The notes beneath the pieces are model-generated. The model saw only the letters and a list, made by a program, of their open reading frames with translations, searched no databases and was not told the DNA's origin. Positions 1,172 through 17,581 of a stretch of DNA of 21,741 nt are shown here, piece by piece; position 1 is the stretch's first letter; each line of letters opens with the position of its first letter. Location: the IMG/VR virus record IMGVR_UViG_3300050013_000100, positions 1 through 21,741 of that record; one strand, given 5' to 3'. A program made the position numbers and the translations under genes. Source of the stretch: a virus.

Positions 1172-1585
1172 ATGCCTAGTCTTGGGGATTTTTTAAATTC
1201 CATCAATCGCAATAAAAATAATCTATTGGAGGATCCAAATTTGGATCCTTCTTTAGTGGAAAAAGATTATAAGAAGCTAGCCTTTATAGTGAACCGATGC
1301 CTTTCATATTTTCCAGATACCCTGTTATATTCACAGGAATTAAATATGCGGTCCGCTTTAGATGGAAAACCTCAATATTTATTTTATCTATATGGGGTTT
1401 CTAAAAAACCTAGATTTGCAAAAGGAATGAAAATTGAAAATTCGGAAAATTTAGGCATTGTAAAAGAATATTATAATTATAATTCTAAAAAGGCACGAAA
1501 GGCATTAGAGATCTTGACAGATGAGGATATAGAGTATATTAAGGACCGTTTGAAACAGGGTGGAGTAGGTAAAAAGAAAACATAA
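1172..1585 (+). CDS. 62: Sliding clamp loader small subunit gp62
   Basis: 137 residues. The core is FIVNRCLSYFPDTLLYSQELNM, then QYLFYLYGVSKKPRFAKGMK, then IVKEYYNYNSKKARKALEILTDEDIEYIKDRL. This series of motifs is that of the short gp62 seen in cyanophage-like relatives of T4; T4 gp62 itself is longer (about 187 residues). The protein is the non-ATPase subunit of the gp44/62 clamp loader and bridges the gp44 ATPases to the gp45 clamp. The Lys-rich end (GGVGKKKT) is unstructured. The gene starts two bases after the preceding stop and is followed after about 34 bases by regA, the T4 order 44-62-regA. Confidence is high from both motifs and synteny. Confidence 0.9.
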   Translation: MPSLGDFLNSINRNKNNLLEDPNLDPSLVEKDYKKLAFIVNRCLSYFPDTLLYSQELNMRSALDGKPQYLFYLYGVSKKPRFAKGMKIENSENLGIVKEYYNYNSKKARKALEILTDEDIEYIKDRLKQGGVGKKKT

Positions 1586-1619
1586 ATATTTTTATACTCC
1601 ACATATGAAGGAAGAGAAT

Positions 1620-2042
1620 ATGATAACATTTGAAGAAGTAGGAATTGAAATTGAATTACCTGATCCTGATTCGTTCTTGAAAACCAGAGAGACACTTACT
1701 CGTCTAGGTATTGTATCCAAAAAAGAACCAAAATTGTTTCAATCGTGTCATATATTACACAAAAAGGGAAAATACCGGATACTCCACTTTAAGGAATTAT
1801 TTTCTTTGGATGGGAAGCAAACCAATTTTTCTGAAGAGGATAAAGCACGCCGAAATACTATTGCGAACCTTCTTGCTGAATGGGAGTTGGTGAAACTTGT
1901 AGATCCTAGTAAATCAGCGTCTCCGGTGGTTCCGATTAATACAATTAAAATTATTCCCTTTAAGGATAAAGAGAAATACGAATTAGTAGCAAAATATAAT
2001 ATTGGTAAAACAAAATATACAGGAAGACAAAATTATGAGTGA
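1620..2042 (+). CDS. regA: RegA translational repressor of early genes
   Basis: RegA is the T4-type RNA-binding protein that covers the initiation region of many early phage mRNAs and blocks translation. The match is clear: T4-like blocks KTRETLTRLGI, LFQSCHILHKKGKYRILHFKELFSLDGKQ, EEDKARRNTIANLLAEWELV and a C-terminal FKDKEKYELVAKYNIGKTK. The start at 1620 (MITFEEVGIEIELPDPDSF) is preferred because AGGAAGAG lies 5-12 bases upstream. An in-frame ATG at 1605 would add five residues but has no ribosome-binding site, and that region would itself supply the site used by 1620. Length (140 aa) is slightly above T4 RegA (122). It overlaps the next start by eight bases. Confidence 0.93.
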   Translation: MITFEEVGIEIELPDPDSFLKTRETLTRLGIVSKKEPKLFQSCHILHKKGKYRILHFKELFSLDGKQTNFSEEDKARRNTIANLLAEWELVKLVDPSKSASPVVPINTIKIIPFKDKEKYELVAKYNIGKTKYTGRQNYE

Positions 2043-2307
2043 AGAACCTATTTTATTGACCGAAGAAAAGATGATTGAAACTGGAGAAATTAAACTTGAT
2101 GAAGACCCGGGACCAAAGATCCGTCCTCCTAAGCAAATAGGACTTAAAAAGTATTTTAAGATGCGAGAACAAGTATTTTTGGATCATGTTCAAGTGACTC
2201 AAAAGGTTGTAATGTCTGATAGACATTACACAAAAGCTTCTAATGGTTGGCGGCTTATTGGTTCTGTTTCAAAAAAGAATAGACTTTCCGAGAAAACTAT
2301 TGTATAA
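2035..2307 (+). CDS. Hypothetical protein, 90 aa
   Basis: The ATG at 2035 overlaps the end of regA and is preceded by AGGAAG, so it is translationally coupled to regA. The product starts with an acidic stretch (MSEEPILLTEEKMIETGEIKLDEDPG), then a basic-proline segment (PKIRPPKQIGLKKYFKMREQ) and a C-terminal part with VMSDRHYTKASNGWRLIGSVSKKNRLSEKTIV. The charge segregation suggests a small nucleic-acid or protein adaptor, but that is inference only. I do not recognise a family, and no enzyme motif is visible. Confidence 0.65.
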   Translation: MSEEPILLTEEKMIETGEIKLDEDPGPKIRPPKQIGLKKYFKMREQVFLDHVQVTQKVVMSDRHYTKASNGWRLIGSVSKKNRLSEKTIV

Positions 2308-2315
2308 TTAAAGAA

Positions 2316-2483
2316 ATGACAATTCAAAAAGCTATAGAAATTTTTTATTCGGGTGAAAAATTGAAATTTGGTTATGAACCACATATTGAAGCTCGGAATC
2401 TTTTGAGAAGTTTGAGACGGAATTCAAAATATTATAAACAATATCTTCAAGAAAAATCGTATTATGCGACAAAAGCAAGCTAA
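2316..2483 (+). CDS. Small hypothetical protein, 55 aa
   Basis: ATG at 2316, eight bases after the preceding stop, TAA at 2481-2483. The product is basic and Tyr-rich: it begins MTIQKAIEIFYSGEK and ends with an alternating pattern RRNSKYYKQYLQEKSYY. It overlaps the next gene by 20 bases in another frame, which is common in this compact operon. There is only a weak purine run (AAAGAA) upstream of the start. No family recognised. The coding call rests on position, codon content like its neighbours and close packing. Confidence 0.5.
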   Translation: MTIQKAIEIFYSGEKLKFGYEPHIEARNLLRSLRRNSKYYKQYLQEKSYYATKAS

Positions 2484-3129
2484 AGATTATCTGTTAGGAA
2501 GATCTTTCCAACGTTTTCTTGAATCTAATGTAGGTAGACCTTGGGATACAGTATATTCTCGGATATGTGAAATTGCCGATAATTGTTCTGATGTTGGAAG
2601 AGATCTTCGAAAAAGATTGGATTGGATGGTTGAAACATCTGGATTTTATATTGATTCTGAAGGAGTGGCGAGATCATTGAAGTATGGATATAACCATCCC
2701 TTGAGAAATATGTATGTAGATCCTAAAACTGGTATTCTTTGTGCTCCTCCTAAAGATAAAGGAAATTATCGGAGAGTTAGACCAGATGAACAAGAAATCG
2801 ATTTAATTATATTGGATGATTATAGATCTTATGAGAAAATTGAGGGTATTTGGTATTATTTGTGGTTAGAAGAAAAAGAAGATACTTATCCTGGTAATTT
2901 GGTAGAAGATGAAAAAGGAATACATTATAATGTAAATCTTATTAAAAGGCATATTCCTCATAAAAAACAATTAAGTAAAGAGGAAATTAAAAATTTAAAA
3001 GATTTGTTTCATTTAGGAATTAATAAAAATTATATGAGACGTATCGGATATGATAGATCTTCAAAATATCAAAATTGGAAAGTTTATTTTAAAACTTGGG
3101 GATTGGGAAAAGAAGTAAATGTCAAATAG
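2464..3129 (+). CDS. Conserved hypothetical protein (GRPWD-VYS motif family)
   Basis: 221 residues. A conserved block near residues 16-55 (FQRFLESNVGRPWDTVYSRICEIADN, then LRKRLDWMVE) and a second around residue 80 (MYVDPKTGILC) resemble a family of bacterial and phage proteins of unknown function with the signature RFL...VGRPWDKVYSEI...LYVDPxTGLL. The C-terminal third (IPHKKQLSKEEIKNLKDLFHL...) looks like helical linker sequence. There are no obvious catalytic residues, zinc ligands or membrane spans. The start at 2464 overlaps the previous gene; the stop overlaps the start of the next gene by 11 bases. I know of no assigned function. Confidence 0.7.
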   Translation: MRQKQAKDYLLGRSFQRFLESNVGRPWDTVYSRICEIADNCSDVGRDLRKRLDWMVETSGFYIDSEGVARSLKYGYNHPLRNMYVDPKTGILCAPPKDKGNYRRVRPDEQEIDLIILDDYRSYEKIEGIWYYLWLEEKEDTYPGNLVEDEKGIHYNVNLIKRHIPHKKQLSKEEIKNLKDLFHLGINKNYMRRIGYDRSSKYQNWKVYFKTWGLGKEVNVK

Positions 3130-3325
3130 AGATTTAAATGAAGCTCTTGAAGTGAAAGATGAAAATGAGTCCTACCGAGAAACTTTTTATTTATTAAAAA
3201 ATGAAATATTTCGGATTAGGAGGGAGTATTTTCTTGGTACAAAATTATTGAGTGAGGGTGCTTTAGAAGAAGTTGATGAGGAATTGGAGCAACTTGGAAT
3301 TACTATTGAGAATGTGCTTTATTGA
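3119..3325 (+). CDS. Hypothetical protein, 68 aa, helical
   Basis: ATG at 3119 overlaps the stop of the preceding gene, implying coupled translation. The product is strongly acidic and predicted from composition to be mostly helical, with a heptad-like pattern (YLLKNEIFRIRREYF, then LLSEGALEEVDEELEQL), so a short coiled coil or helical hairpin is likely. No family recognised. The last codons overlap the -35 box of the promoter at 3322, so the operon that began upstream of the window ends here. Confidence 0.6.
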   Translation: MSNRDLNEALEVKDENESYRETFYLLKNEIFRIRREYFLGTKLLSEGALEEVDEELEQLGITIENVLY

Positions 3326-3350
3326 CATTCTTTTATTTTTATGTTATACT
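3322..3350 (+). promoter_or_regulatory. Strong sigma70-type early promoter
   Basis: TTGACA at 3322-3327, exactly 17 bases, then TATACT at 3345-3350. The expected start of transcription is about 3357, some 15 bases before the ATG at 3372. The sequence after the -35 box begins TTC, as in several other promoters in this window. Confidence 0.8.
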
Positions 3351-3371
3351 TTAATTGAGTGAGAAAATATT

Positions 3372-3506
3372 ATGAGTGATTTTAAATGTGAAGTGGTTCC
3401 AGTTGTACTTGAAAACCATCCAAATGCAGAAAAATTAAGTATTGTAAGAGTATTTGATGGATATCAAGTTTGTGTCCATTGATTATCTAGAAGGTAAAAA
3501 GAAATG
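3372..3506 (+). pseudogene. Decayed N-terminus of an RNA-ligase-like gene (OB/tRNA-binding-type domain)
   Basis: The ATG at 3372 opens MSDFKCEVVPVVLENHPNAEKL, then SIVRVFDGYQVCV, which matches the N-terminal domain of DRB0094/Rnl5-type RNA ligases found in many phages (typical pattern: V..I..HPNADKLEIARVDGWQVVV). The frame meets TGA at 3480-3482. In another frame the next codons read IDYLEGKKK and stop at 3504-3506, which fits the following part of the same domain (DYLEGD...). Nothing of the ligase catalytic domain (KxDG) follows. So this is a remnant that still keeps a perfect promoter. A nucleotidyltransferase of an RNA-repair-type family occurs at 6242. Confidence 0.6.
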
Positions 3507-3860
3507 AGTCTACGTAAAGGTAGTAAAAATCTTCAAGCGAAAATGGAAAATGCTAAAAAAGGAATTCATCAATTAGTTTTTGAAGTCACTGGAACATATA
3601 ATCCTAAAGGTACCTCAAATTTTTTAGGTTCAGTTAAAGATGAAAAAGGAAAAGTTCTTCTTTTGATTAAGGAAGATGAAGATTATAATCAGCTTACACG
3701 TTTATTGAATACTTCTAAATATATGAATAAATTAGAAGATATGCGCGGGTTAGCTGAATATGTTTATGATCGTAATTTGATTACTATGGATGAAGAAGAA
3801 AAAGAGGAGTGGAGAAAAAAGAAACGTACTCCTGTTGAGATTACATTGAAGAGAATTTAA
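3504..3860 (+). CDS. Hypothetical protein, 118 aa
   Basis: The ATG at 3504 is preceded by AGAAGG about 10 bases upstream and overlaps the end of the decayed ligase fragment. The protein is highly charged. The N-terminal half has LVFEVTGTYNPKGTSNFLGSV and GKVLLLIKEDEDYNQL, which suggests a small beta-rich fold; the C-terminal half is helical and ends EEEKEEWRKKKRTPVEITLKRI. No catalytic or metal-binding pattern is seen. Not recognised. It is probably read from the promoter at 3322. Confidence 0.65.
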   Translation: MSLRKGSKNLQAKMENAKKGIHQLVFEVTGTYNPKGTSNFLGSVKDEKGKVLLLIKEDEDYNQLTRLLNTSKYMNKLEDMRGLAEYVYDRNLITMDEEEKEEWRKKKRTPVEITLKRI

Positions 3861-3861
3861 T

Positions 3862-4032
3862 ATGAATCACAATCATGAATTGGAAGAAATATATAGAGTA
3901 CAAGGATTTTTTGGTGTTGATGCTGTAGTAATGTGGTGCCCGACTTGTGGATGTGTTGTTATTGATGAAGAAGTTGATAATAGAACGTCTCCTGGTGCTA
4001 TTATGAAAATGAGGTTTCCTCATTCAAAATGA
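3862..4032 (+). CDS. Small zinc-ribbon-like protein, 56 aa
   Basis: ATG at 3862 directly after the preceding stop; TGA at 4030-4032. The product begins MNHNHELEEIYRVQGFFGVDA and has one CPTCGC knuckle at residues 26-31, then ends RTSPGAIMKMRFPHSK. The pattern of a single C-x-x-C-x-C with a conserved VVMW before it looks like a half zinc ribbon in a small phage protein. No partner ligands are obvious, so it may bind zinc as a dimer. The stop codon overlaps the next start (ATGA). Confidence 0.6.
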   Translation: MNHNHELEEIYRVQGFFGVDAVVMWCPTCGCVVIDEEVDNRTSPGAIMKMRFPHSK

Positions 4033-4292
4033 TACAAGAACCTAAACAGATATGTAGAGCTTGTGCAACAGGTATTGAGAAATTTGGACATAATTCAGAT
4101 CCAAAAACATGTATAAGGGGAAAGGAGGAATATATTAAACACCTTTCTGTTGATGAACAAATGGAACAGTTGATTATCCATGAACGTTTATCTCAGGAGA
4201 TGGCTTGTTTTATTTATTCTTTATCACAAGAGAGAAATAAGAGTCCCCTTGAAGTGATCCAGGAGGAAGGATTAAATTTATTAAATGAATGA
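4029..4292 (+). CDS. Hypothetical Cys-containing protein, 87 aa
   Basis: Starts with the ATGA overlap at 4029, so it is translationally coupled to the preceding small zinc-ribbon gene. The N-terminus has CRAC (residues 9-12) and a third cysteine in DPKTC, with a histidine between them (KFGHNSD), a plausible CCHC or CCC-H metal site. The remaining 50 residues look helical (LSVDEQMEQLIIHERLSQEMACFIYSL...). No family recognised. It could be a small nucleic-acid-binding or adaptor protein; that is inference from the cysteines alone. Confidence 0.6.
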   Translation: MIQEPKQICRACATGIEKFGHNSDPKTCIRGKEEYIKHLSVDEQMEQLIIHERLSQEMACFIYSLSQERNKSPLEVIQEEGLNLLNE

Positions 4293-4301
4293 GAGGAGCA
4301 C

Positions 4302-4667
4302 ATGATTGTAAAGAAAAAAGCGGCCGATTTGCGCGTGGGTGATAAAATTTTAGGCCAGACGAATTATTATAATGTTACTAGTGTTAAAAATAGTAGTCTT
4401 ACGGGATGTATGTATCCAGTAATTGAAGTTACAGATTCGAGAGGAATAAAAAAGATGATAGAGACCGGACAAAATGAAAAGTTCCAAGACCATGTTTATG
4501 AAGTGGATTTACCTGATCCAGAAGTAGTACCAGTAGTTGAGGAACCAGTTAAGGTAGCTAAGAAGAGGGTTGCTAAGAAAAAGACGGTAAAGAAAGTTGC
4601 AAAAAAGAAGGCTGTTGTTAAGAAGGCTGCCGTTTCAAAGAAGGTTGCCTCTAAGAAAAAGAAGTAA
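4302..4667 (+). CDS. Protein with histone-H1-like Lys/Ala/Val tail, 121 aa
   Basis: The ATG at 4302 follows GAGAGGAGC, a good ribosome-binding site. Residues 1-70 form a beta-like domain with AADLRVGDKILGQTNYYNVTSV and YPVIEVTDSRGIKKMI, reminiscent of a small barrel found in phage and intein-like proteins. After an acidic Pro/Val linker (DLPDPEVVPVVEEP), the last 40 residues are a low-complexity tail of KVAKKRVAKKKTV-type repeats. Such tails bind DNA non-specifically in H1-like and AlgP/Hc1-like proteins. The likely role is binding phage or host DNA. Function is inferred from composition only. Confidence 0.7.
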   Translation: MIVKKKAADLRVGDKILGQTNYYNVTSVKNSSLTGCMYPVIEVTDSRGIKKMIETGQNEKFQDHVYEVDLPDPEVVPVVEEPVKVAKKRVAKKKTVKKVAKKKAVVKKAAVSKKVASKKKK

Positions 4668-4674
4668 AACTTTG

Positions 4675-4768
4675 GGAGGGTTGGCAGAGTCAGGTTTATT
4701 GCATCTGCCTTGAAAGCAGAAGGACCCCGAAAGGGGTCCCCTGGGTTCAAATCCCAGGCCCTCCTCCA
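4675..4768 (+). tRNA. tRNA-Ser (UGA)
   Basis: The acceptor GGAGGGT pairs with GCCCTCC (one G-U). The anticodon loop CTTGAAA gives UGA with a normal U33. There is a long class II variable arm with GGACCCC/GGGGTCC pairing, a T-arm CTGGG-TTCAAAT-CCCAG, and an encoded CCA at 4766-4768. The discriminator reads T, whereas bacterial tRNA-Ser normally has G. Confidence 0.93.
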
Positions 4769-4806
4769 AGTTATTTTTGCTCCCGTTAGTAAAATGGTTT
4801 AAATTT

Positions 4807-4886
4807 GCAGGCGTATACCCTTTGCCTTCTAAGCAAGTGAAAGGTTAATTGGACCCATGTGAGTTCGACCCTCACCGCCTGTTCCA
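4807..4886 (+). tRNA. Aberrant tRNA-like gene with UCU anticodon (Arg-type), no D-arm
   Basis: Seen: acceptor GCAGGCG (4807-4813) pairing with CGCCTGT, discriminator T and CCA at 4884-4886; a textbook anticodon arm TTTGC-CTTCTAA-GCAAG (anticodon UCU); and a T-arm GTGAG-TTCGACC-CTCAC. Missing: only seven bases lie between acceptor and anticodon stem, so there is no D-arm, while the region between anticodon and T arms is about 21 bases. Just upstream (4779-4806) is a stretch GCTCCCGTTAGTAAAATGG that resembles the acceptor plus D-arm of another tRNA. The gene may be a recombinant of two tRNAs or a decayed one. The end of the antisense endonuclease gene overlaps it. Confidence 0.5.
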
Positions 4887-5635
4887 AGATTTTTACATTT
4901 AAATCCTTTATGATGTTTGTGTTTTCCTTGAGATACTAGACCCATACATTGTGGTATTAAATTATTTTCTTTACAAAATTTTCTTAAATTTTTAATGATT
5001 TTAATTGTTCCATTTGGATAGGTTATTTGCCAAGTTTTGGAAATTGATGCAACTCGTTTTCTTATATGTTCTTCGGTTTGAATTCTTCCAGTTTGATGAT
5101 TATCTCTTCCTTTTTTGGACTCAGATTTTTTCTTTTTGGTTTCTTCGGAATCTTTATGTCCTTTATGTGCTTCAGAATTTTTCTTATTTTGTTCTGGAGT
5201 ACGTGTTCTTCCGGTTTGATGATTATCAAGACCTTTATGTGATTCTGAAGATTTCTTTCTGGCTTCTTCGGAATTTTTTATTCCTTTACGAGATCCAGCA
5301 ATCCTACAGGTATTATAAAGGATTCCAGAATCCCAATATTTGTCAATTTCATCCTGTTCTGGTTGGATTACCATACATTGGTGCTTTTCTGACCACACCG
5401 GTGTTAAAGCATCCAAGGTGGTATATTTAACATGTATATATTTAAAGGCATTTTCTCCATATTTGTTCCATGCTCTTTGAAGATGATTACAGTGGTGTTT
5501 ATTATGATTTAAATCACTTTTATGTATACTCCAACGATTATATAAATTGACCGCCGATCCAGCATAAAAATGCAGATTTATTGTATTAAGAATATTATAA
5601 ATTCCAGTGTTATAAATAATTGTAGGCGTTTGCAT
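4829..5635 (-). CDS. GIY-YIG homing endonuclease with NUMOD-type DNA-binding repeats
   Basis: 268 residues. The nuclease domain is N-terminal: GIY at 11-13, YAG in place of YIG at 24-26, NRW with the catalytic-type Arg at 34, LQRAWNKYGENAF at 52-64, and EQDEID with a probable catalytic Glu at 93. Residues 115-200 are three NUMOD3-like repeats (SEEARKKSSESHKG, TPEQNKKNSEAHKG, SEETKKKKSESKKG), with DNHQTGR occurring twice. Residues 200-250 form a C-terminal DNA-binding module (NGTIKIIKNLRKFCKENNL, HKGFKC) like those of T4 Seg proteins. A perfect AAGGAGAACTT ribosome site precedes the start. The last 18 residues are read antisense through the adjacent UCU tRNA-like gene. This is a free-standing selfish gene next to tRNAs. 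Confidence 0.9.
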   Translation of the reverse strand: MQTPTIIYNTGIYNILNTINLHFYAGSAVNLYNRWSIHKSDLNHNKHHCNHLQRAWNKYGENAFKYIHVKYTTLDALTPVWSEKHQCMVIQPEQDEIDKYWDSGILYNTCRIAGSRKGIKNSEEARKKSSESHKGLDNHQTGRTRTPEQNKKNSEAHKGHKDSEETKKKKSESKKGRDNHQTGRIQTEEHIRKRVASISKTWQITYPNGTIKIIKNLRKFCKENNLIPQCMGLVSQGKHKHHKGFKCKNLGTGGEGRTHMGPINLSLA

Positions 5636-5659
5636 AAGTTCTCCTTTTGCTTTCGTTTA

Positions 5660-5695
5660 GGGATCTCTAGAAGGTTTAGAGCCTCTATAGGTCCC
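5660..5695 (-). promoter_or_regulatory. Stem-loop in the endonuclease leader
   Basis: GGGATCTCTAG (5660-5670) can pair with CTATAGGTCCC (5685-5695): ten of eleven positions pair, one as G-U, with a 14-base loop. It lies at the 5' end of the predicted late transcript of the GIY-YIG gene, 25 bases from its start codon. In T4, homing-endonuclease genes are known to be held back by leader hairpins; here this is inference. It could also stop transcription from either side. Confidence 0.45.
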
Positions 5696-5700
5696 GTTAT

Positions 5701-5708
5701 TATTTATA
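5701..5708 (-). promoter_or_regulatory. Possible T4-type late promoter for the GIY-YIG gene
   Basis: On the minus strand the sequence is TATAAATA, the T4 late -10 consensus, followed by ATAACGGGA. Transcription would begin near 5695, 60 bases before the endonuclease ATG. The 8-mer is expected several times by chance in DNA this AT-rich, so only the position and orientation give it weight. Confidence 0.35.
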
Positions 5709-5727
5709 CTTCCTAATATTTCACCGC

Positions 5728-5756
5728 TTGACATTCCTTGTTTGATTTGATATACT
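5728..5756 (+). promoter_or_regulatory. Strong sigma70-type early promoter
   Basis: TTGACA at 5728-5733, 17 bases, TATACT at 5751-5756. Start of transcription is predicted at about 5763, directly before the palindrome at 5765-5783. It drives the gene at 5814 with a leader of about 50 bases, the longest of the set. Confidence 0.82.
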
Positions 5757-5764
5757 GTAATTAG

Positions 5765-5783
5765 TTTGTAGTCAGACTACAAA
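5765..5783 (+). promoter_or_regulatory. 19-bp palindrome at the transcription start (operator or 5' hairpin)
   Basis: TTTGTAGTCAGACTACAAA: nine bases on each side of a central A are perfectly complementary. It begins two bases after the predicted start of transcription from the 5728 promoter. As DNA it has the size and symmetry of a dimeric repressor operator; as RNA the one-base loop cannot close, so a hairpin would have to open one or two pairs. Confidence 0.55.
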
Positions 5784-5813
5784 TAAATCTCAATAAATGA
5801 AAGAGAAATAAAA

Positions 5814-6158
5814 ATGATAAAGTTTAAAAATGAAAAACTTGGTGATATTACGATTAAATTTAGGCATCATTTACCATTTGTAGATATCCCCAATCTTAAT
5901 AATTCACTAAAATCTATTGTTACTGGAATTAAATTGCAAAAAGGATATACTGAATGTTTTTTGAATTTGGGGGTAGATGAAAATCGAGTCCCTTTATGGG
6001 AATTTTATGGATATAGCATTACCCATCCAAATGACCATTATCGCAAAGAAACAGGGAGGACTTTATCTCTCCAACGGGCCGTTGAGTCTATGATTCATTT
6101 GGGACACTTTACCGATGCGGATGGCCGTGCTATTATGGTTGGTTATTATTCTCGATAA
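5814..6158 (+). CDS. Hypothetical protein, 114 aa
   Basis: First gene behind the 5728 promoter. The start ATG at 5814 has only a weak purine run (GAAAGAGAAAT) upstream. The protein has a beta-like N-terminal part (MIKFKNEKLGDITIKFRHHLPFVDI), a central TGIKLQKGYTECFLNLGVDENRVPLWEFYGYSITHP, and a helical segment GRTLSLQRAVESMIHLGHFTDADGRAIMVGYY. The last block with ADGRAIM looks conserved in style, but I cannot name the family. No signal peptide or membrane span. It is followed by the long hairpin at 6167-6226. Confidence 0.65.
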   Translation: MIKFKNEKLGDITIKFRHHLPFVDIPNLNNSLKSIVTGIKLQKGYTECFLNLGVDENRVPLWEFYGYSITHPNDHYRKETGRTLSLQRAVESMIHLGHFTDADGRAIMVGYYSR

Positions 6159-14596: not shown

Positions 14597-16259
14597 ATGA
14601 ATAAATTCTACACAAATGTACAATGTAGTGGTAATAAAATCCTTGTAAAAGAAGTAGTAGACGGAAAAAGAAGAAGATTTGATGTCCCTTATAAACCTAC
14701 TTTATACGTTCAAGGAAATAAAAATAGTCAATTTCATACATTAGATGATGCCCCAGTTGAACCTTTAAAATTTGATTCAATTAAAGAAGCAAGAGAATTT
14801 CTAAAGATAAATGAAGGTGTTCAAGATTACCCGATTTATGGAAATACTCAATATCAGTATGCTTATATAGCGGATAATTATCCGGAACATGAAATAAATT
14901 ATAATTTAAAGGATATTGCCATTTACATTATAGATATTGAAAATGAAAATGAAAATACTTTTACGAAGGATGCTTCCGATAATGCGTTAGATAGGATAAA
15001 TGTCATTACATTAAAAAATCTTAATGAGGATTTTTATTACGTTTTCACTTTTGCTGATGATGAAATTTACAATAAAAATAATAGGTATAAACCAGGAAAA
15101 AATATCAAACATTATGAATTTGAATCTGAAGAGGAAATGCTCCTGGGATTCCTTGATATTTGGCGTAAATTGGATCCGGATATTATAACCGGATGGAATT
15201 CAAGGTTCTATGACCTTCCTTATTTGTATAATAGATTAGTTTTGTTGTTCAATGAAAAGACAGCAAAACGTCTTTCTCCATGGAATAATGTACAAGCGGA
15301 AACTGTAAATTTCATGAACCAGGATCGTAATTGTTATGCGATTGCTGGAATCTCTCAATTGGATTATTTGCAATTGTATAAAAAGAATGTGATGGATCCG
15401 AGAGAAAATTATAAATTGGATTTTATTGCAAAAACTGAATTAAAAGGTATAGGTAAATTAGATTGGCAAGAAAAATACAATACAATGAAGGATTTCTATA
15501 CTAAAGATTTCCAGATGTTTGTGGAGTACAATACTCAAGATGTACATTTAATTGATTTATTAGAAGAAAAACGCAAATTACTTGAATTGGTTATTGATGT
15601 TGCTTATATTGCTAAGGTTAATTATGTTGATGTTTTGGCACAAACACGAACATGGGATATATTAATTTATAATTGGCTTAAACAAGAAAATATTGTTATT
15701 CCTCAAAAAGATTTTCAAGAAAAAACAGATCAATTTGTTGGTGCATATGTTAAAGATCCTAAACCGGGGATGTATTATAATGTAGTTTCTTTTGACGTAG
15801 CTTCTCTATATCCTAATATTATTCGTGTTTTAAATATTGGTCCAGAAACTAAACAACCTAAATTTAAAACTTTATTAAATTCGGATGATGTTTTATCCCA
15901 AAATGTAAATTGGAAAAATGCTTTGAAAATTGCTACGGATAATGGTTGTACCTTAGCATCTAATGGAGTTTTTTATAGCAAGATTAAACAAAGTTTTTAT
16001 AGTCGAATGATTGCAGTTTTGTTTGATAAAAGAAAAGGATATCAAAAGAGGGTTAGAGATTCCAAAATAGAAATTGAGGAAATTAATTTGGAAATACAAA
16101 AAAGACTAAATGGTATTGATGAAACGAAAGGGGAATGTTTTTGAGAGATTATTCAAATTTGTCAATAAAACAATTAGAAGAAAAAAGAAAACAATTAGTT
16201 AATGATGTTTCAGCATATGACGTAAAACAAAAATCAACAAAAATCCTTATGAATTCCCT
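14597..16259 (+). CDS. 43: DNA polymerase gp43, exon 1 (with an internal -1 frameshift)
   Basis: T4-like family B replicative polymerase. Exonuclease motifs: Exo I DIE at 113-115, Exo II GWNSRFYD (199-206), Exo III YNTQD (311-315). Polymerase motif A is SFDVASLYPNIIR with Asp400. The frame from 14597 stops at 16142-16144 just after TTTTT at 16138-16142. The next frame continues in register with the protein (LRDYSNLSIKQLEEKRKQL, then VKQKSTKILMNSL) up to 16259, where the group I intron begins. One extra T would restore the frame. So the gene is broken here, is read by -1 slippage on TTTTTGA, or carries a sequencing error. The first half alone (515 aa) would have exonuclease activity but no motif B or C. 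Confidence 0.9.
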
Positions 16260-16494
16260 AAAATAAGTATGGGGCTTCAATAAGAAATTATTGAATGTGA
16301 AAGAGTATAAATTGCTGGAAACTCCTTAGAGCCATTTCTACCAAAGGTAACAATGAAATGGATTGGACAATCAGCAGCCAAATATCAAAAAATGATAGAG
16401 GTTCAGAGACTATAATTACTCCTTCTTTAAAAGAAGATGGTATAGTCCAGACTACAACGCATTAATTGCGGTTCATGAAAATGAAAGTAGTAAG
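16260..16494 (+). ncRNA. Group I intron (self-splicing), 235 nt, no ORF
   Basis: P1: exon CCCT at 16256-16259 pairs with GGGG at 16271-16274, giving the required U-G at the 5' splice site. P2: TTCAATAA/TTATTGAA around a GAAA tetraloop (16276-16295). P4 strands around GCTG (16314-16317) and CAGC near 16382-16388. P5 region CCATTTC/GAAATGG (16332-16361). R-like element GTTCAGAGACTATA (16401-16414) and S-like element AAGATGGTATAGTCC (16434-16448), with P7 formed by GACTATA/TATAGTC. P8: CTTCTT/AAGAAG (16422-16436). The intron ends in G at 16494. Splicing gives CT+G TAC GGC, that is Leu-Tyr-Gly, restoring polymerase motif B. These core elements resemble the T4 td/nrdB/sunY introns. Confidence 0.92.
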
Positions 16495-17581
16495 GTACGG
16501 CGCATATGGTTCTCAATGGTTCCGTTTTTATGATCTTGATAACGCAATTGCAGTAACACAAACTGGACAATTTATTATTCAATGGATTCAAAAAGGAATA
16601 AATAAACATTTTAATTCTTTGTTTGGAACAAAAAATGAAGATTATGTAATTTATTCTGATACAGATTCGGTTTATGTTACATTAGATAAAATTGTATCTC
16701 ACGTTTTTAAGGATAAAAATCCTACTAAAGAAAAAATAATTTCTTTTATGGATAAAATTTGTAAAGAAAAACTTGAACCAGAAATTGATAGATTGTTTGA
16801 GGAAATTACAGACAAACTTATTAATGGTATGAAAGCAGAAAAACCAATATTAAGTATGAAACGTGAAGTAATTGCCGATCGTGCTATATGGGGATCAAAG
16901 AAACATTACATTTTGCAGGTATGGAATTCAGAAGGTGATAATTATTTTGAGTGTTTAGAATGTCATAATAATTTTTCTGGTTATTCTGATATTGCTCCAC
17001 CTTGTAATGAATGTAAGAGTAAGAATACTAAACGCGCGTCCAAATTAAAAATTATGGGGTTTGATATGGTTAAATCTAGTTTACCCCAAGTCGTTAAGGA
17101 CGCCATGCGTAAAGCGGTCAATATTATTATGACAGGCACCCAAACTGAATTGGCAAAATTTATTGATGAAATACGAAACCAATTTATGAAATTGCCGGTT
17201 GAAGATATCTCTTTTCCTCGAAGTGTAAATAATCTGGATAAGTGGACCGATACGGTGGAAACATATACAAAGGGAACGCCAATACAAGTTAAAGCAGTTT
17301 TATTACATAATAATTATTTGAAGGAACTTGGTTTGGAATCTAGATATGCTCCAATCGCATCATCGGAAAAAATTAAATTTGTTTATTTAAAACAACCTAA
17401 TCCTATTCATGATAAAGTGATTGCATTTAATGGTAAATTTCCAAAAGAATTTAATCTTAACAAGTATGTTGATTATTCTGAAATGTTCAATTTATCATTC
17501 ATTAAACCTCTTGAGAAGATATTGGAACCTATAGGATGGACAAGTGATGAAATTGTAGATATGGAGAAATTTTTTATATAG
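16495..17581 (+). CDS. 43: DNA polymerase gp43, exon 2
   Basis: Begins with the third base of the split Leu codon, then YGAYGSQWFRFYDLDNA: the second half of motif B (KxxxNSxYG; exon 1 supplies KILMNSL). Motif C is YSDTDSVYV. Thumb motifs follow (PILSMKREVIADRAIWGSKKHYILQV, KIMGFDMVKSSLP) up to the C-terminal DIVDMEKFFI, the acidic-hydrophobic end through which gp43 contacts the clamp. Between KKHYILQV and KIMG there is an extra segment with CLEC (16952-16963) and CNEC (17003-17014), a probable zinc ribbon not present in T4 gp43. Without splicing this part would be read from ATG 16466 with ten unrelated residues, an unlikely product. Confidence 0.92.

Follow-up and report, generated by a model that had tools for sequence, protein, structure and literature searches.

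An ORF-less group I intron in motif B of a split, T4-like phage DNA polymerase gene

A T4-like DNA polymerase gene that is naturally split most probably harbors, in its 43B half, a self-splicing group I intron that carries no ORF, a reading to which we assign a probability of roughly 0.9. That the 235-nt insert in motif B of gene 43 is an ORF-less group I intron, as the initial annotation had proposed, is confirmed by a covariance match, by empty sites in relatives, by an intron at the same site in a sister virus, and by compensatory changes between the two introns. The same annotation had taken gene 43 to be a single gene and needs revision on this point, as the gene is divided into 43A and 43B, with the break 119 nt before the intron and 43B in a different frame.

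Results

The window, by which we mean the entire 21.7 kb record of an uncultured, T4-like phage that was analyzed (positions 1-21741), encodes T4-type replication genes, namely the end of a clamp-loader gene, gene 43, a UvsX-like recombinase, and a DnaB-like helicase, together with eight tRNAs. Gene 43 occupies three coding stretches (Table 1). The product of 43A matches PHROG 262 and the N-part polymerase family 2062 and aligns to residues 1 to ~502 of T4/RB69 gp43. The alignment of 43B begins at RB69 residue 533, and its 3' exon matches PHROG 262 and the C-part polymerase family 1918. The predicted lengths are ~515 aa for 43A and ~401 aa for 43B.

Table 1. Features of gene 43, its intron, and the endonuclease genes in the window
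Feature	Position	Strand	Remarks
HNH endonuclease gene	185-939 (HNH ~325-939)		Directly after the clamp-loader gene; PHROG 374
GIY-YIG endonuclease gene	4829-5635	minus	With NUMOD3 motif
43A	14597-16144	+	N-terminal part of T4-like family B DNA polymerase (exonuclease domain, motif A), 515 aa; Pfam DNA_pol_B_exo1, DNA_pol_B
AAAGGGG	16127-16133	+	Putative ribosome-binding-like site for 43B, read from sequence
Alternative in-frame ATG for 43B	16135-16137	+
43B 5' exon	16141-16259	+	Putative TTG start (16141-16143) overlaps the 43A stop (TTGA)
43A stop TGA	16142-16144	+
Group I intron, no ORF	16260-16494	+	235 nt; RF00028; empty sites in relatives; same-site intron in L017
P1	16256-16274	+	Exon CCCU (16256-16259) and A16260 with U16270 and GGGG (16271-16274)
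P10, part in internal guide sequence (IGS)	16267-16270	+	GUAU pairs with 3' exon GUAC (16495-16498); in L017, AUAU with GUAU
P2	16276-16295	+	8 bp, GAAA tetraloop
P3	16303-16421	+	GAGUA (16303-16307) with UACUC (16417-16421), around P4-P6
P7	16408-16414 with 16441-16447	+	GACUAUA with UAUAGUC
P8	16422-16427 with 16431-16436	+	P7/P8 region spans 16408-16447
P9	16451-16491	+	16451-16455 with 16487-16491; P9.1 and P9.2 (GAAA loop) inside
43B 3' exon	16495-17581	+	YGAYGS, motif C YSDTDS, thumb; Pfam DNA_pol_B

When 451 bases were scanned, the Rfam model Intron_gpI (RF00028) matched positions 16246-16471 on the plus strand over its full length (1-253) with a score of 63.4 bits (E=6.7e-16), above the gathering score of 50, and the covariance search that had been suggested as a check thus came out in favor of the intron. 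A cmscan of the whole window did not detect it, apparently due to the speed filters of Infernal. The intron of the sister virus, L017 (IMGVR_UViG_3300050014_000377), was likewise missed in a 2.3 kb scan (2800-5100) but scored 65.8 bits when 341 bases were searched. In both cases, the Rfam scan of a long stretch lost a group I intron that exceeds the gathering threshold in a short one, and surveys run with default filters may undercount compact phage introns.

The minimum free energy of the intron with short flanks is below that of 198 of 200 dinucleotide shuffles (z=-3.1). Both splice sites are fixed by P1, P10, and the terminal G: U16259 is the last base of the 5' exon, where the pairing of CCCU with GGGG leaves a U-G wobble at the splice site, the last intron base is G16494, and the 3' exon begins at G16495. 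P4, P5 with an extension, and P6 were placed as well. The element combines a P3-P8 core scoring above the gathering threshold with the wobble, terminal G, and P10 of group I introns. Removal of the intron restores the 43B reading frame; motif B then reads NSL/YG (here and below the slash marks the insertion point), with a predicted spliced junction of AATTCCCT/GTACGG. The length, the P2 hairpin with its GAAA loop, the CT/GTAC junction, and the lack of an ORF had all been correctly read in the initial annotation. TCC and CTG, the codons at the junction, are both rare in the window genome (CTG accounts for 14 of 396 leucine codons and TCC for 27 of 241 serine codons), as expected if P1 constrains the exon. 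Helices P7.1 and P7.2, located between the 5' strand of P7 and the 3' strand of P3, are typical of IA2 introns. In the window intron, these strands are separated by 2 nt only (A16415 and U16416), and it is not assigned to IA2 because the P7.1/P7.2 region is absent.

Relatives without the intron are numerous. In 15 close relatives, whose polymerases are 62-69% identical to that of the window along their entire length and with which the rejoined window exons are continuous, gene 43 is one unbroken frame through motif B, and motif B is also uninterrupted in 2 more distant loci from the same search (17 loci together) and in 38 more loci from a wider search, so that the site is empty in at least 55 intron-less relatives. 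L017, found as two contigs with equal gene 43 alignment coordinates (L017 and L018), has an intron of 233 nt (3045-3277) at the position identical to that in the window, and its exon 2 is 74% identical to that of the window. The window and L017 form sister branches (support 100/99) and are the sole members of the tree with both intron and split; the two features were therefore probably each gained once, in their common ancestor. Viral contigs scanned with 25-mers yielded no carriers other than the two L017 contigs, none of the five further introns picked up with a core pattern lies in a polymerase related to that of the window by tblastn, and a scan of genome contigs found no relative. An insertion at this site was absent elsewhere among the records examined. 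Two other interruptions of polymerase genes were observed along the way. A cr3_1 crAss-like phage (L034, 1761-2830) has a family B DNA polymerase gene into which a group I intron-like core containing a GIY-YIG ORF is inserted, and in two loci (L088 and L089, 4900-5906), ~1 kb of stop-rich, non-coding-looking DNA interrupts the exonuclease part of a related gene 43 (query residue 298-305).

A single comparison, that between the two viruses, shows compensatory changes in five of the 8 pairs of P2 and in one pair each of P9.1, P9.2, and P10. The change in P10 ties the wobble base of the tyrosine codon (TAC/TAT) to the guide base of the intron (G/A). Ungapped identity between the two introns is 90.7%, compared with 72-84% for the exons. 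We do not take this as proof of recent transfer; since the outer helices vary freely, it may simply be the ribozyme core that is under constraint.

In L017, gene 43 is further divided, into four coding pieces (1334-5924). After its intron, 43B runs into an N-terminal intein half at DTD/S in motif C; this is followed by a freestanding endonuclease gene with an MTES_1575-like end and then by a C-terminal intein half fused to the remaining polymerase.

The division between 43A and 43B has the form of a T4-type split gene 43, with two ORFs encoding the N and C parts of gp43. The break maps between T4/RB69 residues ~502 and 533, which we take to be the fingers tip, and it coincides both with the ends of PHROG families 2062 (N part only) and 1918 (C part only) and with the region of the Aeromonas 43A/43B split. 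The simplest start for 43B is the TTG at 16141, which overlaps the 43A stop and lies seven bases after AAAGGGG, and separate translation of 43B would begin there. TTG is a weaker start than ATG. A different account would have a programmed -1 frameshift at TGT TTT TGA, with the phenylalanine tRNA slipping back to yield a single gp43, and a slip at window positions 16138-16141 would indeed give the in-frame peptide ECFLRDYS. We consider this quite unlikely, as the 43A stop of L017 lies ~66 nt upstream of the conserved TTG and the two viruses share no slippery site, so that slippage cannot be their common mechanism, and the ribosome-binding-like sequence (AAAGG, extended to AAAGGA in L017) and the TTG are retained at equal spacing. 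The frame change at 16140 might also be an assembly or sequencing error in an otherwise single, intron-bearing gene, given that it falls in a run of five T and that the HNH gene of the window is also frame-broken. Such an error is highly improbable, however, because L017, assembled as separate contigs, shares the split, changing frame at the same place with a different local sequence and in-between stop codons, and because the break matches the ends of the split-polymerase families and the Aeromonas split region. Separately translated halves are thus the preferred reading.

The HNH and GIY-YIG genes of the window had been put forward as candidate mobilizers of the intron, and this suggestion found no support. 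The HNH gene, encoding one PHROG 374 protein, is broken near 540 into two overlapping frames and is either a pseudogene or affected by a sequence error; the GIY-YIG gene is encoded on the complementary strand at a distance of 11 kb. The 3' end of the latter adjoins or overlaps a weak tRNA-like match (4807-4883) on the opposite strand. The HNH protein showed no resemblance to the ORF of the kvi motif A intron (E=2.5), and the GIY-YIG protein matched that of phage 25 weakly (E=0.013). Beyond this weak match, comparison of the two window proteins with the endonucleases of other gene 43 introns revealed no resemblance.

Discussion

Taken together, these features suggest how active polymerase would be produced. 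43A and 43B would be transcribed as one message in which the intron folds, and, following the standard chemistry of the class, P1 (CCCU with GGGG) and an external guanosine would release the 5' exon. P10 (GUAC with GUAU) would align the 3' exon, and ligation at CT/G TAC would restore NSLYG. Ribosomes would presumably finish 43A at the TGA ending at 16144 and begin 43B at the overlapping TTG, and the two polypeptides would combine into a single polymerase, for which Aeromonas phage 25 provides a reported example. Both splicing and two-chain assembly are drawn from the anatomy of the locus and from the phage 25 precedent. Splicing is predicted to be required for active polymerase, as had been claimed from the outset, because unspliced 43B would end two codons into the intron. 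The intron was most likely inherited with the split within a small lineage, after one earlier acquisition that would have depended on a homing endonuclease acting in trans.

Two other histories of the intron deserve consideration. If its fold were intact but splicing had decayed, it would be a defective relic, no 43B would be made, and the phage would be dead or would use another polymerase. The Rfam score is moderate (63.4 bits) and the record is a 21.7 kb fragment, as might be seen in such a case. It is nevertheless extremely unlikely, as all core helices are intact and the changes relative to L017 are compensatory, the frames of 43A and 43B are open throughout and their motifs intact, and two diverged viruses retain the same intron and exon pairing. 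It is also conceivable that the intron jumped from motif A of a T4-type polymerase, since both motifs encode Ser-Leu-Tyr at a target of TCCCT/RTAY, and the introns of phages JSE and PC3, at SL/Y in motif A, share the GGGG guide. In JSE (Straboviridae; L031, 2091-2513), ACTTCCCT precedes and GTAT follows the insertion point, and in PC3 (Ackermannviridae; L032, 1801-2240), AACTCCCT precedes and ATAT follows it; the exon end in both, TCCCT, is the same as that of the window motif B intron. A small, alignment-based tree of intron cores (159 columns) disfavors descent from these introns, however: those of phage 25, AS-gz, JSE, and PC3 cluster with an Acinetobacter phage intron, apart from those of the window and L017, which group with introns of other contigs. 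The window intron also lacks the long insertion between the 5' strand of P7 and the 3' strand of P3 that is found in the Aeromonas, JSE, and PC3 introns, and it possesses a P5 extension that they lack, and we therefore regard an origin in motif A as very unlikely. The best-supported interpretation of these sequence comparisons is that different group I introns were separately acquired at neighboring conserved codons. A more specific version holds that unrelated introns separately settled on the nine-base TCCCT/RTAY in motifs A (SL/YP) and B (SL/YG), which would make the Ser-Leu-Tyr codons a recurrent landing site, possibly reached through guide-directed reverse splicing between the motifs; this is a rather unlikely proposal, under which the split at the fingers tip, the intron in motif B, and the split intein in motif C would form a repeated syndrome of gene 43 colonization.

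The window represents a further lineage, far from the Aeromonas phages, whose replicative polymerase gene is not only divided at the fingers tip but also carries an insertion in motif B, and its sister virus adds a split intein in motif C. The recurrence of this arrangement in distant lineages suggests a hot spot in gene 43, with selfish elements of several kinds accumulating at catalytic codons. Assembly of the polymerase would then depend on RNA splicing, on the joining of fragments and, in L017, on protein splicing.

Comparison with known systems

Aeromonas phage AS-gz resembles L017 in having the same four-piece plan, annotated as an intein-containing split polymerase, and sharing with both L017 and the window the 43A/43B split and an ORF-less motif B intron. 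Its intron is at the site used in phage 25, whereas that of L017 is at the site used in the window. AS-gz and L017 both carry the split intein and a freestanding endonuclease (the two endonucleases are 39% identical), but the window lacks a motif C intein. In Escherichia phage JSE and its relatives (kvi and ECD7), gene 43 is likewise of the T4 type and interrupted by a group I intron, with the 5' exon TTCCCT, the GGGG guide, and the Ser-Leu/Tyr codons in common with the window. In these phages, however, the intron is in motif A (SLYPS) rather than motif B, and in some of them it contains an ORF, which is a truncated or full endonuclease ORF.

A split gene 43 with an ORF-less intron in 43B is a plan already published for Aeromonas phage 25 (intron 25.g43B, DQ529280; Petrov, Ratnayaka and Karam 2010, cited in PMC2993671 and PMC2988022). 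According to the accounts given in PMC2993671 and PMC2988022, its 43A and 43B products co-purify with polymerase activity, and its intron, described there as having no endonuclease of its own, is predicted to rely on a freestanding one. In phage 25, as in the window, gene 43 is T4-related and divided at the fingers tip, and 43B holds a motif B intron, but the GenBank annotation of phage 25 places a GIY-YIG gene between 43A and 43B and assigns the ORF-less intron to group IA2. The phage 25 intron is at NSLYGA(T/TG), 11 nt downstream of the site in the window; it is longer, with the P7-P3 insertion, and belongs to the other clade of the core tree, and the two polymerases are distantly related (~30% identical). 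The new elements in the present case are the phage lineage, the site of insertion, the gene split, and the four-piece gene of the sister virus.
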